Virus record (IMG/VR): IMGVR_UViG_3300031999_000071
Location: 1 to 41,159 of that record
Direction: 5' to 3' (one strand)
Source of the DNA: a virus
DNA: 41,159 bases
Translations under genes and position numbers: made by a program
In this document: piece after piece, positions 2,337 to 36,935 of the stretch
Numbering within the stretch: position 1 is the stretch's first letter
Layout: each line of letters opens with the position of its first letter
Notes under the pieces: generated by a model
Database searches by the model: none
Seen by the model: only the letters and a program-made list of their open reading frames with translations
What the model was told of the DNA's origin: nothing

Positions 2337-3173
2337 ATGAGCTTCTATCCGCACAACCCGGACTACAACCCGCCCGTCCAGCCCTCGGGCGGGGGCCACG
2401 CCGTGACCGGTGGCAAGGTCGCCGACTTGCTGAAGTACGAGGTCGCGCCGCTGAACACCAGCACCGTCAACCTGCACGCCGCCGTGCTCCTCGACGCCAC
2501 CTACGCGAAGACGGCGGGGACGAGCGTCGTGCTGGAGACGGCCAGCGCCAGCGACGTGCTCCTCACGGTCACGGTGGGCACGACCATCGCCATCGGTGAC
2601 ATCCTCAAGGACGCCGCCAAGGCCGAGTGGGTCAAGGTGACGGCCATCGCCGCCGCGCCGGTCTACACGGTGGAGCGCGGCTACCGGGGCACCGCCCTCG
2701 CCACCCACGCCGCAGGCGCGACGTGGAACAGCGTCGGCAAGACCGTCGCCGTCACCCTGCTCGCCGCCGAGCTGGCGGCCTGCCCGCAACTGGTGGAGAT
2801 AAAGGGCGTCGGCGCGACCCTCACGGGCGACGTGACGGTCTACGGCACCAACATCCGCCATGAGGCCATCTCCGACACCATCGCCCTCAACGCCGCTGCC
2901 GCCGTGCCCAGCGTCAAGGCGTTCCGCTCCATCGCCACCTACGACGTGCCCTGTCAGGTGGCGGGGAGCGACTCGGTGAGCCTCGGCACGGTCAAGACGG
3001 TGGGCCTCCCGTGGTACGTCAAGAACAGCGCCCACGTGCTGCTCGGCCAGCTCGACGGCTCCAGCGACGCGGGCAGCGTCACCTACGACGACAACGAAAT
3101 CGAGAAGTGCGTCTACGCCGTGGCGGGTACGCCCGACGGCTCCAAGAAGCTCACCCTGTTCATCGCTCACTGA
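2337..3173 (+). CDS. Structural protein, first of a tandem paralogous pair
   Basis: This 278-residue protein follows the capsid gene and is clearly paralogous to the next one: both share YEVAPLN, a YAKTA segment, the VERGYRGT / VQRGYRGT motif, a VYGTNI motif and a matching C-terminal block ending near AGTPDGSKKLTLF. The N-terminal 25 residues are Pro/Gly-rich and absent from the second copy. It looks rich in beta strands. A capsid decoration or head-surface protein is likely from position, but I do not recognise a named family. The start follows a GGGAGG site. Confidence 0.65.
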   Translation: MSFYPHNPDYNPPVQPSGGGHAVTGGKVADLLKYEVAPLNTSTVNLHAAVLLDATYAKTAGTSVVLETASASDVLLTVTVGTTIAIGDILKDAAKAEWVKVTAIAAAPVYTVERGYRGTALATHAAGATWNSVGKTVAVTLLAAELAACPQLVEIKGVGATLTGDVTVYGTNIRHEAISDTIALNAAAAVPSVKAFRSIATYDVPCQVAGSDSVSLGTVKTVGLPWYVKNSAHVLLGQLDGSSDAGSVTYDDNEIEKCVYAVAGTPDGSKKLTLFIAH

Positions 3174-3183
3174 GAGGAGTGCC

Positions 3184-3966
3184 ATGGCCATCGCGGGCCT
3201 CAAGCCGTGCGGCTTGCAGAAGTACGAGGTCGCCCCGCTGAACGCGACTTCGGTAGGACTCCACGCGGCCATCACCTTGGTCGTGACCTACGCGAAGACA
3301 GCGTTCAGTGCGACCTTCCTTTCGACCGCACTAGCCACCGACAACAACCTGCGCTTCACGGCGGGGGGCGGGGTCGCCGTGGGCGACATCCTTCAGGATG
3401 CGGCCTCCGACGAGCTGGTCAAGGTGACCTCCATCACGGGCTCGCCGACCTACGCCGTGCAGAGGGGCTATCGCGGCACGTCCCGCGACACGCACCTCGC
3501 GGGCGCGGTGTGGAACCTCGTGGGGCAGACCGTCGCCCTGTCTCTGCTGGCCTCCAACCTGCTCGCCTGCCCGCAGCCGGTGTCCATCAAGGGCACCAAG
3601 GCGGGCGGCTCGCTGACCGGCAACGTCAGGGTCTACGGCACCAACATCAACGGCCTCGCCATCGACGACACGATAGCCCTCAGCGACGATGCCGTGGTGA
3701 ACTCTGCCAAGGCCTTCAAGACGGCGACGAGCTGTGACGTGCCCTGCGCCGTCACGGCCGCCGACACCGTCTCGCTGGGCGTCAGCAAGGCCCACGGCCT
3801 GCCGGTCAAGGTCGCCACGCTGGCGCGCATGGTCATCCACGAGTTCGACGGCTCGACCGACGCCGGGGCGGTGACCTACAACACCGACATCGCCAAGTGC
3901 CTCTACACCCCTGCGGGCACGCCCAACGGCACGAAGCTCTCGACGCTCTACTTCGTGAGCATCTGA
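3184..3966 (+). CDS. Structural protein, second of a tandem paralogous pair
   Basis: This 260-residue paralogue of the preceding gene lies 10 bases downstream of it. Shared landmarks are QKYEVAPLNATSVGLHAAI, VGDILQDAASDELVKV, VQRGYRGTSRDTH and CLYTPAGTPNGTKL. The level of divergence suggests an old duplication kept for two roles, such as two decoration proteins or a heteromeric one. A GC-rich hairpin follows its stop codon. Function is inferred from position only. Confidence 0.65.
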   Translation: MAIAGLKPCGLQKYEVAPLNATSVGLHAAITLVVTYAKTAFSATFLSTALATDNNLRFTAGGGVAVGDILQDAASDELVKVTSITGSPTYAVQRGYRGTSRDTHLAGAVWNLVGQTVALSLLASNLLACPQPVSIKGTKAGGSLTGNVRVYGTNINGLAIDDTIALSDDAVVNSAKAFKTATSCDVPCAVTAADTVSLGVSKAHGLPVKVATLARMVIHEFDGSTDAGAVTYNTDIAKCLYTPAGTPNGTKLSTLYFVSI

Positions 3967-4466: not shown

Positions 4467-7400
4467 ATGGCGGTCACCTTCAGAGGTGCCTATAACAGCG
4501 GGGGCGCAGCCAACCCCACGACCGCGCTCGACCTGTCGCTTTCGGGATGCAACGCGGCGGCGGGCGACCTCGCCATCATCGTCATCTACTCCCGTGCCTC
4601 CGCGAAGACGTGGGCGGTCGCCGCCAAGGGCGGCGGCACCGCGCCCGCAGCCATCAGCGGGCAGGACGTGAACAACGTGACCTACGGCCGCCTCGCCGTC
4701 TACCAAGCCACGCTCTCGGCCCAAGACATCACCAACGGCCATATCGGCACGACCGGCACGTTTGGCAGCATCACGAACGGCACCACGGGCTTCATCGTCG
4801 CCGTCTTCCGTGGTCACAACAGCGTGCGCGGCGGCACCACCCCGGCGACGGGCACGGGCGACCCCAACCCGCCGAACTACTCCTCGACCTCGGGCGACTG
4901 CCTCATCGCCGTCGGCGGCGGCATGGACCAGAACGACGGCATCACCGCCTCGGCGAACTTCACCCTCAACGCGAGCGCGGCATGGTCGTCCTCCTCGGGC
5001 ACCGATGCTTGGTCGGCGCTCGAATACGACCTCGACGGGGGCACCGGCAGCGGGGTCGACCCGGCGGTCATGGCGACCTCGACCGACTCGGCGTGGTACA
5101 CGACCGTCATCGGTATCAGTGGGGACGTGCCGCAGACAGCCACGCCCACCGGCATCGCTAGCGCGCAGGCCGTCGGCACGCCGGTAGTCAAGAAGCAGCA
5201 TCAGGAGGCCGCGCCCACGGGTATCGCCAGCGCCGAGGCGGTCGGCGCGGTCACGCTCGACCTCGCCAACACCATCACCCCGAACGGCTGGGCGCAGCTC
5301 TACCCCGGCGGCGATGCCGTCATCACGTGGGGCCACTGTGACACCGACGACGACGCCTCGGTGCTGGGGGCGGTCGGTGGCGGCCTCATGTACCTCTCTT
5401 TCGACGGCGGCGCGACTTGGGACACCTACGGCGTCGGCCCCGATACGGTCAAGAACCGCTGCGCAGTCGCCATCGACGCCGACGGCTCGGTCATCATCCA
5501 GACGGAGAACGGCGTGGCCTCTACGCTGTCCACCAACAGCGGCTCCAGTTGGGCGGCGACCGGCCCTTCCATCAGCTACCCCTACCACGCCTCTGTCGAC
5601 GATGACGGCTCGGTGCTGTGGGTCGTCAACTACGGCTACCGCTGCCACCTGTCCGTCAACGGCGGCACCGATTGGACGGAGCCGCGCCCCAACGGCGACG
5701 TGGACGTGTCGTGGCAAGACCAAGCCTGCGACAGCGACGGCTCCGTGCTCATCGCGGCGGGCGACTTCGACCCCAACCGCGGCATCTATGTCTCGGTGAA
5801 CAGCGGGGCTGGCTGGACGCGCTACCGGCCCGGCATCTCCACAGTGGGCTACTACTCGGTCGCCTGCGACGGCACGGGCGCGGTGATTCTCGCCTGCGAG
5901 GCGGCTCTCCCCGGCAAGTGCTGGTTGTCCACGGACACGGGGGCTACGTGGGTGGAGGCCAAGCCCGCCGGGGAAACGACCAAGAACTGGAGGCGCGTCG
6001 CCGTCAGCAAGGACGGCAGCACGCTCATCGCCGTGGTCAGCAGCGGGCGCGTCTACCTGTCCCTCAACCGAGGGGGGACGTGGACCGAGCAGCAGCCCGC
6101 AGGCGACAGCAACCAGTCGTGGGACGGCGCGGCCATCAGCGCCGACGGCAAGTTCGCCCTCGTGCACCACAACCGCCTCTACGCCTACGGCTACCACCGC
6201 TTCGTCCACTATCCGCTCGGCATCCAGAGCGCGGAGGCGATGGGCTCCGCGACCGCGACGCGCGCAGAGATAGAGCATCGGACGCTGACGCCAGCGGGCA
6301 TCGCCTCAGCGGAAGCCATCGGCACGGCGGCCCCCAAGTACAACCAGATACCCGCGCCCAGCGGCATCGCCAGCGCCGAGGCCGTGGGAGCCGCCACCGC
6401 GACCAAGACCTCGAACATCATCATCACGACCGCAAGCTGGGCTGAGATTCGCCCAGACGCGGGCGACTACGACCGTTACTGGCGCGCCCTCGGGGCGAGC
6501 GCCGACGGCAAATACTTCATCGCCGGAAACTGGTCGACGACCGGCGTCAACAACAGCGGGCGCATCTATCGCTCGACCGACTACGGCGCGACGTGGGCCG
6601 AGATAGACGCCCCCATCGTCGACTACGACGGCTGGGACGCGGCGGCTAGCGACAGCGACGGCTCACACCAACTCATCGGTGTCGGCTGGAACGACGTCGG
6701 TTACCTCGACCGCACGACGAACGGCGGCTCAAGCTGGGCTTCGGTCACGCCTTACGCGGGCTCCTACCCGAACTGGGTCGGCGCGGCCATCAGCGCCGAC
6801 GGTGCGGTCATGCTCGTCGGTGGTGGAGTGGAGGGCGACAATAGCGGTCGCCTCTACCGCTCGACGAACTCGGGCACGGACTGGAGTGAGCTGCAACCCG
6901 CCGGGGCCATCAACCGCATCTGGCGCGCCCTCTCGATGAGCAGCGACGGCGAGGTCATGCTGGCGGGGGCCAACAATGGTCGCCTTTGGCTCTCGACCAA
7001 TGGCGGTGACAACTGGACTGAGGCCACCGCCTACAACTCGTTCGAGGACCCGTGGTACTGCTCCTCCATGAGCGCCGACGGCGCGGTCATGCTCGCGGGC
7101 CGCAGCCAGCGCCTCTACCACTCCATCGACGGCGGCGCGAACTGGCACGACGAGCAGCCCGACGGCGACAACAACCGCCACTGGCATTCCTGCTGGGTCA
7201 GCCCCGACGGCACGAAGATGATGGCCGCCGAGGTCTCCAGTGGGGGCTCGAATACGGGGCGGCTCTGGTACCACAACGGCACCTCGTGGGCCCAGATGTA
7301 CCCGGCGGGCGACGTGGCGAAGTCGTGGGCGCTCGTCGTAGGGTCTAGCACTGGGGCCACCATCGCTGCCGTCGGCTATCAGGCCACCGGCCGCCTCTAC

Positions 7401-9440
7401 CGCTCCACCTGCAACGGGCAAGACGTACAGACAGTCCTTCCCACGGGCGTCGCTTCGGGGCAGGAGGTCGGCACAGTCACCATCGTGCGCGCCTACTCTT
7501 ACCCGGCGGGCATCCCCAGTGCCGAGGCCATCGGCACGCCGACCATCCTCAAGGGCAACGTCAGCCGTGCGCCCACCGGCATCGACTCGGCAGAGGCTAT
7601 CGGCGTCGCCACTCGCCTGCCCAAGAACACCGCCCTGCCGACGGGCATCGCCTCGGCCGAAGCCGTGGGCAGCGTCACCGTCCTCAAGGGCAACGTCGAC
7701 CGCGCCCCAAGCGGCATCGCCTCGGCTGAAGCTGTCGGCACCGCGACGACCTTGAAGGGCACCGTCACCCGCACGCCGACGGGCGTGGCGAGCGCGGAGG
7801 CCGTGGGCACCGCGACCCGCGTCCCGGCCAACGCTTTCGGGGCCGCAGGCATCGCGAGCGCGGAGGCTATCGGGACTGTGACGGCGCTCAAGGGCAACGT
7901 CACGCGCACCTGCACCGGCATCGCTTCGGTGGAGGCCATCGGCTCCTGCACGGTCACCCTCCGCAACCTCGTCAGTAACGCCGGGGGCATCGCCAGCGAA
8001 GAGGCCATCGGCACGGCCAAGTGGCACCTTGTCAGGCTGGCCTCTGGCATCGCCTCTGCGGAGGCCGTCGGAGCTGCGACCCGTAGCGCCGCAATCAGCC
8101 GCTCGCCCAGTGGTATACCCACCTCTGAGGCCGTCGGGGCAGCAACGGCCGCAGCGACCGCGCAGCGCGCCCCTACGGGTGTCGCCAGTGGCGAGAGTGT
8201 CGGCACCGCGACCCGCCTCGCGACGAACGCCTGCGCCCCCGCAGGCATCGCCAGCGCCGAGGCCGAGGGCGCGGTCACGGTCCTCAAGGGCGGGGTCAGC
8301 CGCACCTGCACAGGTATCGCTTCCGAGGAGGCCTTCGGCTCGGTCACGGTCACGCGCGGCACCACGGTCTACAACGCGGGCGGCATCCCTTCGGAAGAGG
8401 CTGTCGGTGCGCCAAAGGTCAACCGCACGGTGCTGATGGTGGGCCTCGCCAGCGCCGAGGCGATGGGCGTCGCGGCCCGCCTCGCCACGTTCTCGCGCTC
8501 CGTCTCCGGCGTGCCCTCGGCAGAGGCTGTGGGCGGGGCCTCAGCGGTCCATAGCGACGCTGCTAGGGCTCCTGCCGGTGTGGAGTCCGCCGAGGCCTTT
8601 GGGAGCGTACAACGCCTCTGCGCGATTACGCGCTCCGCGACGGGTATCGCCTCCGCCGAGAGCTGCGGCGCAGCCACGCGCGCGCCCGGCCCCGTGAGCC
8701 GCACCTGCACCGGCATCGACAGCGGCGAGCAAGTCGGCAGCGCCACCACCGAGCAGGCTGGTGGGGACGCCCAGACCCGCGCGCTGAGCGGCATCGGAAG
8801 TGGGGAGGCGGTCGGCACCGCGACGACCGCGCAGGGCGGCGTCACGCGCTCGCCCGCAGGCGTCAGCTCTGCCGAGGCCATCGGCACGCCGACTCGCCTC
8901 CCCACCAACAGACCGGCCGTGGTCGGTATCGCCTCGGGCGAGTTCATCGGCGAGGTCACGGTCCTGAAGGCGCGAAAGGTGACGCCCACGGGCATCGCCT
9001 CGGGCGAGCAGGTCGGCAGCCCCGCGCGGCTGCCCGGCCCCGTCTCTGTGACTCTCAACGGGATACCGTCAGCCGAGGCCCCCGGCTCGGTATCGCTCGC
9101 CCTCAAGTACACGGCGACGCCGCTGGGCATCGCCTCGCTGGAGGCCTTCGGCACGCCCGACCGCTTCGTCGGCGGCGTCACCCGCATCGTCCTCGGCATC
9201 CCCTCTGCGGAAGCCATCGGCACCGTGTGGGCGGGCTCCGACTTGCAGCTCGTCTACCCCACCGGCATCGCCTCGGCCTTCCAAGTGGGCCATGCGTGGG
9301 TGCTCATCGAGAGTGACACCGAGGTCGCCCCCGGCGGCAGACCGTGGCGGCCTAGCAAGATACGCCGAACCCGGCTATCGTCAAAGGGCCACGGGGAGAA
9401 GATGACCAAGCGTAACGACACCGGGAGGTCAAGGACATGA
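4467..9440 (+). CDS. Giant beta-propeller/repeat protein (putative head fibre or adhesin)
   Basis: This 1657-residue protein has three kinds of region. Residues 1-220 look like a beta-sandwich lectin-like domain. Two sets of BNR/Asp-box motifs follow: about residues 310-535 (SFDGGATW, STNSGSSW, SVNGGTDW, SVNSGAGW, STDTGATW, SLNRGGTW) and about 700-890 (STDYGATW, TTNGGSSW, STNSGTDW, STNGGDNW, SIDGGANW), consistent with two beta-propellers. The third is a repeat PTGIASAEAVG plus a spacer, with 2 copies before the first propeller, 3 between the propellers and 28 in residues about 990-1610. Asp-box propellers often bind or cleave glycans, but I cannot identify sialidase catalytic residues. Its place between head and neck genes, rather than with tail fibres, is unusual. 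The basic C-terminus ends in an ATGA overlap with the next gene. Confidence 0.7.
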   Translation: MAVTFRGAYNSGGAANPTTALDLSLSGCNAAAGDLAIIVIYSRASAKTWAVAAKGGGTAPAAISGQDVNNVTYGRLAVYQATLSAQDITNGHIGTTGTFGSITNGTTGFIVAVFRGHNSVRGGTTPATGTGDPNPPNYSSTSGDCLIAVGGGMDQNDGITASANFTLNASAAWSSSSGTDAWSALEYDLDGGTGSGVDPAVMATSTDSAWYTTVIGISGDVPQTATPTGIASAQAVGTPVVKKQHQEAAPTGIASAEAVGAVTLDLANTITPNGWAQLYPGGDAVITWGHCDTDDDASVLGAVGGGLMYLSFDGGATWDTYGVGPDTVKNRCAVAIDADGSVIIQTENGVASTLSTNSGSSWAATGPSISYPYHASVDDDGSVLWVVNYGYRCHLSVNGGTDWTEPRPNGDVDVSWQDQACDSDGSVLIAAGDFDPNRGIYVSVNSGAGWTRYRPGISTVGYYSVACDGTGAVILACEAALPGKCWLSTDTGATWVEAKPAGETTKNWRRVAVSKDGSTLIAVVSSGRVYLSLNRGGTWTEQQPAGDSNQSWDGAAISADGKFALVHHNRLYAYGYHRFVHYPLGIQSAEAMGSATATRAEIEHRTLTPAGIASAEAIGTAAPKYNQIPAPSGIASAEAVGAATATKTSNIIITTASWAEIRPDAGDYDRYWRALGASADGKYFIAGNWSTTGVNNSGRIYRSTDYGATWAEIDAPIVDYDGWDAAASDSDGSHQLIGVGWNDVGYLDRTTNGGSSWASVTPYAGSYPNWVGAAISADGAVMLVGGGVEGDNSGRLYRSTNSGTDWSELQPAGAINRIWRALSMSSDGEVMLAGANNGRLWLSTNGGDNWTEATAYNSFEDPWYCSSMSADGAVMLAGRSQRLYHSIDGGANWHDEQPDGDNNRHWHSCWVSPDGTKMMAAEVSSGGSNTGRLWYHNGTSWAQMYPAGDVAKSWALVVGSSTGATIAAVGYQATGRLYRSTCNGQDVQTVLPTGVASGQEVGTVTIVRAYSYPAGIPSAEAIGTPTILKGNVSRAPTGIDSAEAIGVATRLPKNTALPTGIASAEAVGSVTVLKGNVDRAPSGIASAEAVGTATTLKGTVTRTPTGVASAEAVGTATRVPANAFGAAGIASAEAIGTVTALKGNVTRTCTGIASVEAIGSCTVTLRNLVSNAGGIASEEAIGTAKWHLVRLASGIASAEAVGAATRSAAISRSPSGIPTSEAVGAATAAATAQRAPTGVASGESVGTATRLATNACAPAGIASAEAEGAVTVLKGGVSRTCTGIASEEAFGSVTVTRGTTVYNAGGIPSEEAVGAPKVNRTVLMVGLASAEAMGVAARLATFSRSVSGVPSAEAVGGASAVHSDAARAPAGVESAEAFGSVQRLCAITRSATGIASAESCGAATRAPGPVSRTCTGIDSGEQVGSATTEQAGGDAQTRALSGIGSGEAVGTATTAQGGVTRSPAGVSSAEAIGTPTRLPTNRPAVVGIASGEFIGEVTVLKARKVTPTGIASGEQVGSPARLPGPVSVTLNGIPSAEAPGSVSLALKYTATPLGIASLEAFGTPDRFVGGVTRIVLGIPSAEAIGTVWAGSDLQLVYPTGIASAFQVGHAWVLIESDTEVAPGGRPWRPSKIRRTRLSSKGHGEKMTKRNDTGRSRT
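7440..9290 (+). repeat. In-frame protein repeat array (28 copies of a GIASAEAVG-type unit)
   Basis: A roughly 66-base, 22-residue coding period carries the core (P/C)TG(I/V)(A/P)SAEA(V/I)G followed by a variable stretch such as TVLKGNVSRA. Twenty-eight cores can be counted from residue about 990 to 1610 of the giant protein. Synonymous codons differ freely between copies, so this is an old array kept by protein-level selection rather than a fresh DNA expansion. It is not a CRISPR array. Confidence 0.8.
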
Positions 9441-20820: not shown

Positions 20821-21864
20821 ATGCCGCAGACAGCCACCGAGAATCAGCGCCGGGTTCAGTGCTCGCGCTGCCACACCTTCAAGCCGCTCTCCGAGTTCTA
20901 CCGCAACTCCGAGACGGCCACGGGATTCTCGCCCTTCTGCAAGGTCTGCGACCTCGCCGCCCAGCGCCTCCTCGGCGTCAAGGTGAGCGAGACGCGCACG
21001 TTCGGCGTGGAGATAGAGTGCTACTGCCGCAGGAGCCGCGAAGACGTCGCCCGCGCCCTCAGGGCCGCAGGCCTCAACGCCTCCGCCAACCCCTACAGCC
21101 ACACCGACAAGGACTACTGGGAGGTCACCACCGACGCCTCCGTGCCCAGTCACTACGACAACAACAGCTACGAGGCCCGCGACTACTGGCACGGCATGGA
21201 GATTGTCAGCCCCTGCGGCTCCGCCGCCCTCAAGGGCAAGCGTGGACTCCGCGAGCTGCGCAAGGTGACGCGCGTCCTCGCCCGCCTCGGCGTCAAGGTC
21301 GACAAGCGCTGCGGCCTCCACACCCACCAGTACGCCCGCGACCTCGACCTCGTCGCCTTCAAGAACCTCGCCAAGCTGTACGTCAAGCACGAGGCCGCCT
21401 TCGACTCCATCGTCCCCGCGTCCCGCAGGGGCGAGCGCGCCGCTAACGGCCCCTGCGGAGTGATGGCGCACGGCCTCATGGAAGCCTCCTACTTCGTCGC
21501 CCGCGACTACATCTACTCGACCGACTCGTACGAGCCGATGACGAAGGCGACCGTCTTCGCGCACATCGACAGCGCCTACGACGTGGACGGTATCGCCCGC
21601 CTCTGGACGGACCGCTACCTGAAGCTCAACCTCCGCTCCTTCGCCGTCCACGGGACGGTGGAGTTTCGCCACTTCGGCGGCACCGTCGACTTCGAGAAGA
21701 TGGTCTACTGGGTCGCCCTCACGCAGTCGCTCGTCGAGCAGGCCGCGACCATGACCATCGGCACGCGCGGCGCAGTCAGCCTCGCCGCCGTCTTCACCGC
21801 CGCCCACACGCAGCCGACCGTGCGCAGGTTCTTCGAGGCCCGCGCCGCCCGGCTCGCCGCCTGA
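20821..21864 (+). CDS. Amidoligase (Amidoligase_2, COOH-NH2 ligase superfamily) with N-terminal zinc ribbon
   Basis: Residues about 13-45 form a zinc ribbon (CSRCHTFKPLSEF ... CKVCD). The rest matches the glutamine-synthetase/GshA-like amidoligase fold: FGVEIEC (GxExE metal/ATP site), HGMEIVSPCG, RCGLHTHQY, then RYLKLNLRSF and HGTVEFRHFGGT with the terminal helices. Family members use ATP to join a carboxylate to an amine, often adding amino acids to peptides or proteins. The cyclotransferase-like gene two positions downstream could reverse or edit such bonds. The substrate is unknown. It is the first gene behind promoter P1. Confidence 0.8.
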   Translation: MPQTATENQRRVQCSRCHTFKPLSEFYRNSETATGFSPFCKVCDLAAQRLLGVKVSETRTFGVEIECYCRRSREDVARALRAAGLNASANPYSHTDKDYWEVTTDASVPSHYDNNSYEARDYWHGMEIVSPCGSAALKGKRGLRELRKVTRVLARLGVKVDKRCGLHTHQYARDLDLVAFKNLAKLYVKHEAAFDSIVPASRRGERAANGPCGVMAHGLMEASYFVARDYIYSTDSYEPMTKATVFAHIDSAYDVDGIARLWTDRYLKLNLRSFAVHGTVEFRHFGGTVDFEKMVYWVALTQSLVEQAATMTIGTRGAVSLAAVFTAAHTQPTVRRFFEARAARLAA

Positions 21865-34801: not shown

Positions 34802-34818
34802 CGCCAGAAGGAGGCGAG

Positions 34819-36162
34819 ATGCCGAAGGCGCGAGACGCGCTCAAAGTGGAGTGGTGGGCCACCGACCGACCGATACCTTACGCCGCGAACGCCCGCGTGC
34901 TCTCGGACGTGGCGGTGGGCAAGGTGGCGGCCTCCATCAAGGAGTACGGCTGGCGGCAGCCCATCGTCGTCGACGAGGAGGGCGTCATCCTCGCCGGTCA
35001 CACGCGCTTGCAGGCCGCCCAGAAGCTGCGGCTCGCCGAGGTGCCGGTGCACGTCGCTGCCGGGCTCACGAAGGCGCAGGCTAAGGCTTTCCGCCTCATG
35101 GACAACCGCTCCGCGCAGGAGGCCACGTGGGACGTGCCCCTCCTGCAGACTGAGTTCGAGGCGCTGCGCGAGCTGGGCATCGACCTCGCCCTCACGGGTT
35201 TCGACAACGCCGACTTCGAGCGCTTCGACATCGAGGGGGCCATCCTCCAAGGAGATGTCGAGCTAGGGGGGGCGGGCAAGCCTGAGCGCCGCGCCCTGCC
35301 GCTGGACGTCATCTTCACCATGGACTCCATCGTCTACTACCACCTCGCCGCTGCCAGTGGCGTGCTCATCGGTATCCAGTCCAAGCCCGGCTGGCTGCCG
35401 GAGGGACACCGCGCCGTCAAGAAGCCGGACTGGATGACCATCTCCTTCATCGACAACGACTTCAAGGACTACGACCACGGCAGGCACAAGGAGATTGTCA
35501 GCATCTACCGCCCCAAGTACTGCACGGTGCGCGACTACCTGAGCCCGCTCCAGTGCGAGGACGCGGGCATCGCCTACTACGACCTCGACAGGATTCTCGG
35601 CTGGGCGGAGGAGCTACAGCCCTACGTCGAGCACGTCATCGTCATCCCCAAGGTGGACGTGGTGAAGGAGGTTCCCGAGGAGTACGTGCTGGGCTACTCC
35701 GTGCCCTCCTCCTACGGCCAGACGCCGCTGCCGCCGAGCGCCTTCGTGGGCCGCCGCGTGCATCTCCTCGGGGGGAGCTGGAGGAGCCAGCTGCGCTACC
35801 TCACCTACCTCGGCGACGACGTTGTCGCGCTCGACTTCAACCACGCCGCCAACATCGCCCAGTGGGGCCAGTTCACGACCAGAGGAGGCAAATCGAGGAG
35901 CCTGCGCGACATCGGTGTCGACGTACAGTCCCTGTCCTTCGACCACGCCGCGAAGATAGCCGAGGAGGGGCTTTTCTACGTGCGCGGCGGGGCTGAGGCC
36001 TCGCTCGAGGAGGCGCACGTCGACGTCGCCAACGTCATCCCCTCCGCCATCACCCTGAGCCTCGGCGCGATACTCGCCGACCTCCGCGAACTGTTCGGTC
36101 AGGAACCACCCTCGACCGTGCCCACGTCCCCGTACTCCCTCACAGGAGGAGTGACATCGTGA
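34819..36162 (+). CDS. dpdA: ParB-like / DpdA-like fusion, predicted 7-deazaguanine DNA transglycosylase
   Basis: The 447-residue protein has an N-terminal ParB-like domain (about 8-125; VLSDVAVGKVAASIKEYGWR, VILAGHTRLQAAQKL, MDNRSA) and a C-terminal TIM-barrel-like part (about 150-440) resembling phage DpdA proteins related to tRNA-guanine transglycosylase. Landmarks are KPDWMTISFIDNDF, YRPKYCTVRDYLSPLQCEDA, VIVIPKVDV, LGYSVPSSYGQTPLP and GRRVHLLGGSWRSQLRYL. DpdA swaps guanine in DNA for a 7-deazaguanine base. A TGT-type CxC zinc cluster is not seen. Residues 339-406 hold a 34-residue tandem repeat. ATG 34819 is chosen for AAGGAGG 5 bases upstream; ATG 34798 is the alternative. The transporter gene downstream overlaps by GTGA. 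Confidence 0.72.
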   Translation: MPKARDALKVEWWATDRPIPYAANARVLSDVAVGKVAASIKEYGWRQPIVVDEEGVILAGHTRLQAAQKLRLAEVPVHVAAGLTKAQAKAFRLMDNRSAQEATWDVPLLQTEFEALRELGIDLALTGFDNADFERFDIEGAILQGDVELGGAGKPERRALPLDVIFTMDSIVYYHLAAASGVLIGIQSKPGWLPEGHRAVKKPDWMTISFIDNDFKDYDHGRHKEIVSIYRPKYCTVRDYLSPLQCEDAGIAYYDLDRILGWAEELQPYVEHVIVIPKVDVVKEVPEEYVLGYSVPSSYGQTPLPPSAFVGRRVHLLGGSWRSQLRYLTYLGDDVVALDFNHAANIAQWGQFTTRGGKSRSLRDIGVDVQSLSFDHAAKIAEEGLFYVRGGAEASLEEAHVDVANVIPSAITLSLGAILADLRELFGQEPPSTVPTSPYSLTGGVTS

Positions 36163-36935
36163 GCCCGACCAAGACAGACCTCACCCACGGCACGACGCTC
36201 TACTCGGACAAGCTCCAGCTGCGCACCGACTGGCGCTACCTGACGCTCATCACCGCCGCCTTCGTGGCCGTGCTGATGCTGAGCAACACCCTCGCCGTCA
36301 AAGTCCTCCAGCTCGGCCCCTTCCTCATGGACGGGGGGACGGTGCTGTTCCCCATCTCCTACATCTTCGGTGACGTGCTCACTGAGGTCTACGGCTTCCG
36401 CCTCTCGCGGCGCGTCATCTGGACGGGCTTCGCGGCCATCGCCTTCATGGCCTTCGCCTACTGGCTGGTGGGCGTCCTCCCCGCCTCTTCCGAGTGGGGC
36501 ATGGACTCCTCCTACGCCGCCATCCTCGGGCAGGTGCCGCGTATCGTGCTGGCCTCCCTCTGCGGCTTCTTCTGCGGTGAGTTCGTGAACAGCACGCTGC
36601 TCTCGCGCATGAAGGTCTGGACGCAGGGCAAGGCCCTGTGGAGCCGCACCATCAGCTCCACCGTGGTCGGTGAGTTCGTGGACTCGTTCGTCTTCGTGTT
36701 CATCGCCTTCAGCGGCGTGCTGCCGCGCCGCGACGTGCTCATCATGGCCTTCTCCAACTGGGGCTTCAAGACGCTCTACGAGGTGCTCTTCACGCCCGTG
36801 ACCTACTGGGTCGTGAACACCCTCAAGCGTAAGGAGCGCGTCAACATGTTCGACACCGACGTGACCTACACCCCGTTCCGCCTCAACCTCGATGGCGTGA
36901 AGGAGCACAACGCCGCCGAGGACGGTCAGTTCTAG
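36159..36935 (+). CDS. yhhQ: YhhQ-family queuosine-precursor transporter
   Basis: This 258-residue integral membrane protein has about six or seven hydrophobic segments and the family signature: YLTLITAAFVAVLMLSNTLA, then TVLFPISYIFGDVLTEVYG (the FPxxYxxxDxxxExYG motif), later FCGEFVNSTLLSRMK, SRTISSTVVGEFVDSFVFVF and NWGFKTLYEVLFTPVTYWVV. YhhQ-type (VUT/QPTR) proteins import preQ0/preQ1-type bases. GTG start overlaps the DpdA-like stop (GTGA) with AGGAGGA 8 bases upstream, so the two are co-translated. No precursor synthesis genes are in the window. Confidence 0.88.
   Translation: MSPTKTDLTHGTTLYSDKLQLRTDWRYLTLITAAFVAVLMLSNTLAVKVLQLGPFLMDGGTVLFPISYIFGDVLTEVYGFRLSRRVIWTGFAAIAFMAFAYWLVGVLPASSEWGMDSSYAAILGQVPRIVLASLCGFFCGEFVNSTLLSRMKVWTQGKALWSRTISSTVVGEFVDSFVFVFIAFSGVLPRRDVLIMAFSNWGFKTLYEVLFTPVTYWVVNTLKRKERVNMFDTDVTYTPFRLNLDGVKEHNAAEDGQF

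Follow-up and report, generated by a model that had tools for sequence, protein, structure and literature searches.

The enzymes known to place 7-deazaguanines in phage DNA include DpdA1 (phages 9g, CAjan, Dp-1 and TA17A) and DpdA2 (phage nt-1). A ParB-like gene is found immediately upstream of dpdA in Mycobacterium phage TA17A and Gordonia phage Sour, and a transporter gene has this position in Dp-1 (annotated QueT) and MS1 (Vut_1). In phages with DpdA1 or DpdA2 the transporter comes with the synthesis genes, not in their place. Bacterial Dpd systems also pair the two types of protein, as DpdA is assisted by the ParB-like DpdB (PMC12839542). In the haloarchaeal tailed virus HVTV-1, dPreQ1 accounts for about 30% of G in the DNA (PMC6884629, 2019); the authors found no DpdA and considered that the virus might rely on an enzyme of its host or on a transferase that had escaped detection (PMC6884629). 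It was also proposed in 2019 that phages take up 7-deazaguanine precursors, at a time when YhhQ was uncorrelated with any phage group.

The window analysed here, 41,159 nucleotides in length, is a single linear virus record of metagenomic origin (IMGVR_UViG_3300031999_000071). It encodes terminase, portal, major head, tape measure, Erf-like annealing and replication-initiation proteins. No near-identical phage is present in the phage collection searched, no host was recognised, and a search for a terminal overlap at the contig ends found none. Neither tRNAs nor RNA families, preQ1 riboswitches included, were detected in the 41,159 bases. At positions 20821–21861 there is a match to phage amidoligases (phrog_2443, E 2.3e-30), together with a stretch that resembles endonuclease VII/HNH families.

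Upstream of the TerS, TerL and portal genes are two adjoining genes, termed here gene 1 and gene 2 (Table 1). The GTGA overlap described in the first-pass annotation of this DNA is present, and gene 2 is probably translationally coupled to gene 1 through it, judging from the arrangement of the reading frames. We consider it probable that gene 1 encodes a DNA-guanine transglycosylase of the HVTV-1 type, fused to a ParB-like domain and supplied with a base imported via gene 2, and that the DNA would then be likely to resist restriction.

Table 1. Positions of the features of the gene 1/gene 2 locus in the window.
Feature	Position	Strand	Basis or remark
Shine-Dalgarno-like AAGGAGG for gene 1	34808..34814	+	5 bases before ATG; direct sequence read
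Gene 1, ParB-like + DUF6610 TGT-fold fusion, 447 aa, ATG start; predicted DNA-guanine transglycosylase	34819..36162	+	
ParB-like N-terminal domain, aa ~10-135	34846..35223	+	phrog_620, E 5.8e-42
DUF6610 (PF20314) predicted TGT-like (beta-alpha)8 barrel, aa ~162-430	35302..36108	+	Profile match and AlphaFold domain model
D212 codon, end of strand 3, corresponding to E. coli TGT D89 by strand order	35452..35454	+	
D239 codon, end of strand 4, corresponding to E. coli TGT D143 by strand order	35533..35535	+	
D339 codon, end of strand 8, corresponding to the TGT nucleophile, E. coli D264, by strand order	35833..35835	+	
Tandem duplication of ~36 residues, aa 337-372 / 371-406, just after strand 8	35827..36036	+	Local alignment
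Shine-Dalgarno-like AGGAGGAG for gene 2, within the 3' end of gene 1	36144..36151	+	Direct sequence read
GTGA overlap of gene 1 and gene 2	36159..36162	+	
Gene 2, YhhQ/QPTR-family queuosine-precursor transporter, 258 aa, GTG start	36159..36935	+	TIGR00697, PF02592

The C-terminal part of the gene 1 protein belongs to DUF6610 (PF20314), with 125 bits against a gathering cut-off of 27 (E 3.9e-36, residues 178–363). This domain was aligned with IMG/VR relatives, and AlphaFold was run on the whole protein and on the domain alone. The domain-only model (pLDDT 85.3, pTM 0.83) displays eight strands in barrel order. When it is compared with the PDB, the best 50 matches listed are all tRNA-guanine transglycosylases (TGTs), with E values from 4.7e-6 to 1.3e-4 and probabilities of 0.99–1.00, and TGTs also make up nearly all best matches of the full-length model. 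It should be pointed out that TM-scores to TGT are modest (query-normalised, at most 0.53). In a viral structure library, the best matches of the domain are a ParB/sulfiredoxin phage protein, HCTV-1 gp64 and phage queuine tRNA-ribosyltransferases; the model of nt-1 DpdA2 is matched lower in the list, at E 7e-5.

Conserved residues are found where a TGT would have its active site. Position 212 is an aspartate in 68 of the 69 aligned rows, the remaining row having a gap, and D239, D339 and N341 are invariant (69/69 each). D212, D239, the motif VHLLGG on strand 7 and D339 follow one another in the order of D89, D143, YLMGVG and D264 of E. coli TGT, a mapping of the aspartates that is based on strand order and motifs. 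On the AlphaFold models, the C-terminal domain of gene 1 is thus a TGT-type (beta-alpha)8 barrel. A failure to match the TGT fold had been named beforehand as grounds for abandoning the transglycosylase reading, and the comparison of the AlphaFold model with the PDB gives that match. The phage DpdA landmarks claimed for this part of the protein stand with respect to fold and active site, but not with respect to sequence family, which is DUF6610 instead.

Gene 1 also has an internal tandem duplication, for which the local alignment score is 80 compared with a mean of 17.8 (sd 3.6, maximum 33) in shuffled sequences. The duplicated stretch (35827–36036) follows the strand of the predicted nucleophile, falls in a low-confidence region of the model and is absent from the aligned relatives.

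The link between DUF6610 and TGTs is invisible to sequence profiles alone. An HMM search of the C-terminus against DpdA and TGT families, suggested in the first-pass annotation, gave no match to DpdA1 or to PF01702. The DpdA1 profile has no match in the window, with gp3 of Mycobacterium phage Knocker found at E 1e-38 as the positive control; phrog_887, the family of CAjan DpdA, is not among the 25 matches listed for gene 1; and PF01702 (TGT) does not match gene 1 at E 1. PF01702 is uninformative as a test for the barrel, because Knocker gp3 and nt-1 DpdA2 are missed by it as well. Profile-profile comparison of DUF6610 with DpdA1 and DpdA2 shows nothing significant. The best hhalign value is that for DpdA2 of nt-1, a probability of 8.8%, where VHLLG is aligned on VHMLG and the strand-8 aspartates are aligned; the known DpdA1–DpdA2 pair itself reaches just 19%. 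Assignment of the C-terminus to the 9g/CAjan type of DpdA1 was rejected for want of a DpdA1 profile or phrog_887 match, and at the level of sequence family it appears not to be of the nt-1 type of DpdA2 either, but to belong with the DUF6610 proteins of HVTV-1-like archaeal viruses. What gene 1 shares with DpdA1 and DpdA2 is the TGT-like barrel, the order of the active site and a neighbourhood of 7-deazaguanine genes; it differs in having no significant sequence-profile match to them, and in that their ParB is a separate gene.

Given a fold shared with tRNA-guanine transglycosylases, gene 1 might instead act on tRNA and, together with the transporter, increase host tRNA queuosine during infection, leaving the phage DNA unmodified. 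Proteins of the QPTR family normally supply tRNA modification (PMC11130926). We regard a tRNA role as very unlikely. The gene 1 protein has only two cysteines, so the CxCxxC motif with which tRNA TGTs bind zinc is missing. It has no PF01702 match, although known phage DpdAs lack one too. In addition, it carries a ParB-like domain of a kind that is elsewhere in phages fused to DNA methyltransferases, and in the related virus HVTV-1 it is the DNA that is modified (PMC6884629).

The evidence for the N-terminal domain, which agrees with the ParB-like assignment made earlier, comes from its similarity to ParB-like phage proteins (phrog_620, E 5.8e-42, residues 10–135). ParB_N scores 24.1 bits, slightly below the Pfam cut-off of 26.3, and when solved structures are searched by sequence, ParB proteins are the only matches for gene 1; gene 2 has none. 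Fusions of phage ParB-like domains to DNA methyltransferases are frequent. Perhaps the ParB-like domain of gene 1 holds DNA or chooses sites on it.

Two further arrangements of these domains were observed in IMG/VR. L119, the contig there whose terminase was the nearest found, has a ParB-like protein at 2521–3249, upstream of the terminase genes, with a short cysteine-rich tail and without DUF6610; this suggests that C-terminal modules are exchanged behind a ParB-like head. Another locus (L022) contains two DUF6610 genes (380–1096 and 5809–7617), one of which is fused to an apparent DNA methyltransferase, with YhhQ directly upstream.

Relatives of gene 1 in viruses with 7-deazaguanine gene clusters point to its function. 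HVTV-1 gp69 matches PF20314 with 192 bits and adjoins FolE, with QueC, QueD, QueE and QueF in the same cluster. HCTV-1 gp64 is also a DUF6610 protein within a FolE/QueC/QueD/QueE/QueF cluster, and has YhhQ nearby. These proteins of haloarchaeal tailed viruses (phrog_23010) have the same conserved residues as gene 1, but they have no ParB domain and are accompanied by a full synthesis cluster with QueF. The DpdA1 profile finds no match in HVTV-1, HCTV-1 or the Que-positive contigs G002 and G008, with Knocker as the positive control. Because HVTV-1 has dPreQ1 in its DNA, a Que cluster and no DpdA1, gp69 is the natural candidate for its inserting enzyme, and we propose it as the one missed in the 2019 study; a later paper may already name it. 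Cui et al. (2023, Nucleic Acids Res) reportedly gave the name DpdA4 to a subfamily ‘specific to archaeal viruses’, and this is presumably the HVTV-1 gp69/HCTV-1 gp64 protein. If so, the window extends the occurrence of this domain to contigs of bacteriophage type, where it is fused to ParB. A literature search on DUF6610, DpdA4 and ParB-DpdA-YhhQ, which did not reach the 2023 paper, returned no relevant publication.

Mycobacterium phage Knocker encodes a ParB-DUF6610 fusion, gp1, with the same layout as gene 1. It differs from the window in having FolE, QueC, QueD, QueE, a QueF-like gene and an extra DpdA1 (gp3), and in having no YhhQ. The two TGT-fold proteins, gp1 and gp3, are encoded on either side of the QueF-like gene (L001, 1–2547). 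The presence of both in one phage is what would be expected if DUF6610 were an accessory domain, either non-catalytic or a DpdB-like helper of another transglycosylase from host or phage. The assistance given to DpdA by ParB-like DpdB in bacterial Dpd systems (PMC12839542) also fits this possibility, as does the separate ParB gene that adjoins DpdA1 in mycobacteriophages. However, the three active-site aspartates are all conserved, and HVTV-1, HCTV-1, G002 and G008 are without a DpdA1 by profile that such a helper might serve; an accessory function therefore appears improbable. Bacterial Dpd systems resemble gene 1 in combining a TGT-like enzyme (DpdA) with a ParB-like protein (the ATPase DpdB) (PMC12839542), but gene 1 is a single fused phage protein, and no DpdC or restriction genes were seen. 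The DUF6610 model also matches the control genomes of Corynebacterium glutamicum, Bacillus subtilis and Haloferax volcanii, above the cut-off in one of them, and these are possibly prophage or cellular copies.

Gene 2 was claimed to be a YhhQ protein, and the profile searches bear this out: it scores 100.4 bits with TIGR00697, ‘queuosine precursor transporter’ (curated cut-off 50.95), and matches Vut_1 (PF02592) at E 1.1e-51. It has in common with the QPTR/YhhQ transporters (COG1738) the TIGR00697 match, and its closest relatives are bacterial; it differs from them in being encoded by a phage and coupled to a predicted DNA-modifying enzyme. Such YhhQ-like (P0002-like) genes are rare in phages, with nine found in 50,697 phage records. 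The protein shares 48.7% identity with a queuosine precursor transporter of Sphingomonas and 46.6% with a transporter of Thermomicrobium, whereas its full-length identity to those YhhQs of other DUF6610 phages that align well does not exceed about 30%. In the tree it groups with the bacterial transporters and not with the other phage YhhQs (support 98/97), although a single clade of the window and other phage transporters is not rejected by the AU test (p 0.298). The grouping and the identities together suggest that YhhQ was acquired independently.

No QueC, QueD or FolE was found on the contig in the Pfam search, and no QueE or QueF with local profiles, so the lack of FolE, QueD, QueE and QueC reported in the first-pass annotation is confirmed; as the record is one linear contig, this holds for the contig and not for a proven complete genome. 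As QueF was not found in the window, an imported base would go into the DNA with no QueF step in between. Scans of IMG/VR with gene 1 or gene 2 as a single protein gave nothing, but two alignment-based scans produced about 80 distinct loci with DUF6610, which were picked by this domain and not by YhhQ. Local profiles place YhhQ within 5–6 kb at 24 of the loci, one of them being the window. In all 24 it is on the same strand as the enzyme, and in 16 it overlaps the enzyme gene or is within about 110 bases of it.

In the window's clade, counted contig-wide, 19 of 41 contigs have YhhQ, 13 have QueD, none has both and nine have neither, several of the nine being short fragments. Fisher's test for YhhQ versus QueD gives P = 3e-5, a value that overstates the exclusion because the labels are clustered on the DUF6610 tree, with about four switches (4–5 in bootstraps) compared with 9.6 expected if shuffled. 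The window's nearest neighbour on this tree, L008, has a complete Que set (support 90/93). The proposal of precursor import made from the window thus receives comparative support, as relatives have either synthesis genes or YhhQ beside the enzyme.

It can also be asked whether gene 1 modifies DNA with preQ0 or preQ1 made by the host, the transporter being a passenger, either for queuosine salvage by the host or for transport of some other vitamin-like compound. Host supply has been proposed for DpdA-only phages (PMC6884629), and the substrates of Vut_1/QPTR proteins are difficult to tell from sequence (PMC11130926). Furthermore, HCTV-1 and Streptococcus phage MS1 have YhhQ alongside a full synthesis set, and HCTV-1, which is outside the window's clade, has both YhhQ and QueD. 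On the other hand, YhhQ adjoins the enzyme on the same strand and often overlaps it at many loci, and in the window's clade it replaces QueD and does not accompany it. A passenger role is unlikely, although among the alternatives considered here it has the most in its favour.

Four loci (L039, at 5662–7461, L043, L059 and L060) have YhhQ with QueC and QueF (QueF-II) but no QueD. This half pathway suggests import of an intermediate earlier than preQ0, e.g. CDG. Among 35 distant contigs with unfused DUF6610, YhhQ is found in five and QueD in one, and most have neither. Unfused phage proteins form a large clade (L062–L103) whose contigs are mostly without QueD and YhhQ; the distant unfused proteins may draw on precursor from the host or have some other function. 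With respect to hosts, a first scan of bacterial genomes for relatives found nothing, and a second found two short contigs from Chloroflexota MAGs, one with ParB-DUF6610 and YhhQ. A Chloroflexota host assignment was not adopted, since two short MAG contigs are too weak as evidence.

Catalysis, DNA as the substrate, the imported base and its identity, the role of the ParB-like domain and protection are what we infer for the gene pair. The fused ParB-like domain would hold or scan the DNA, and the TGT-like barrel would excise guanine from phage DNA via a covalent intermediate at D339 and insert a 7-deazaguanine, preQ0 or preQ1, in its place. Gene 2, translated in coupled fashion, would supply the infected cell with imported free base and replace the missing FolE-QueD-QueE-QueC route, and the modified phage DNA would probably resist restriction enzymes. 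On the best reading, modification of phage DNA by 7-deazaguanines is the part that was known already, and the ParB-fused transglycosylase of the HVTV-1 type with an import-only supply is the part that is new. The import idea is directly testable, because YhhQ beside the transglycosylase replaces the synthesis genes in the window's clade.

DUF6610, a domain of unknown function, is now tied by structural modelling to the TGT fold, and the ParB-TGT fusion would combine in a single protein what the DpdA/DpdB or DpdA/ParB pairs divide between two. Chances seem even that there is here a lineage of phages with a ParB-fused transglycosylase which has more than once swapped synthesis for an imported micronutrient, and in which protection of the genome depends on scavenging. 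If true, the defence of a virus against DNA-cutting systems would hinge on a scavenged nutrient.
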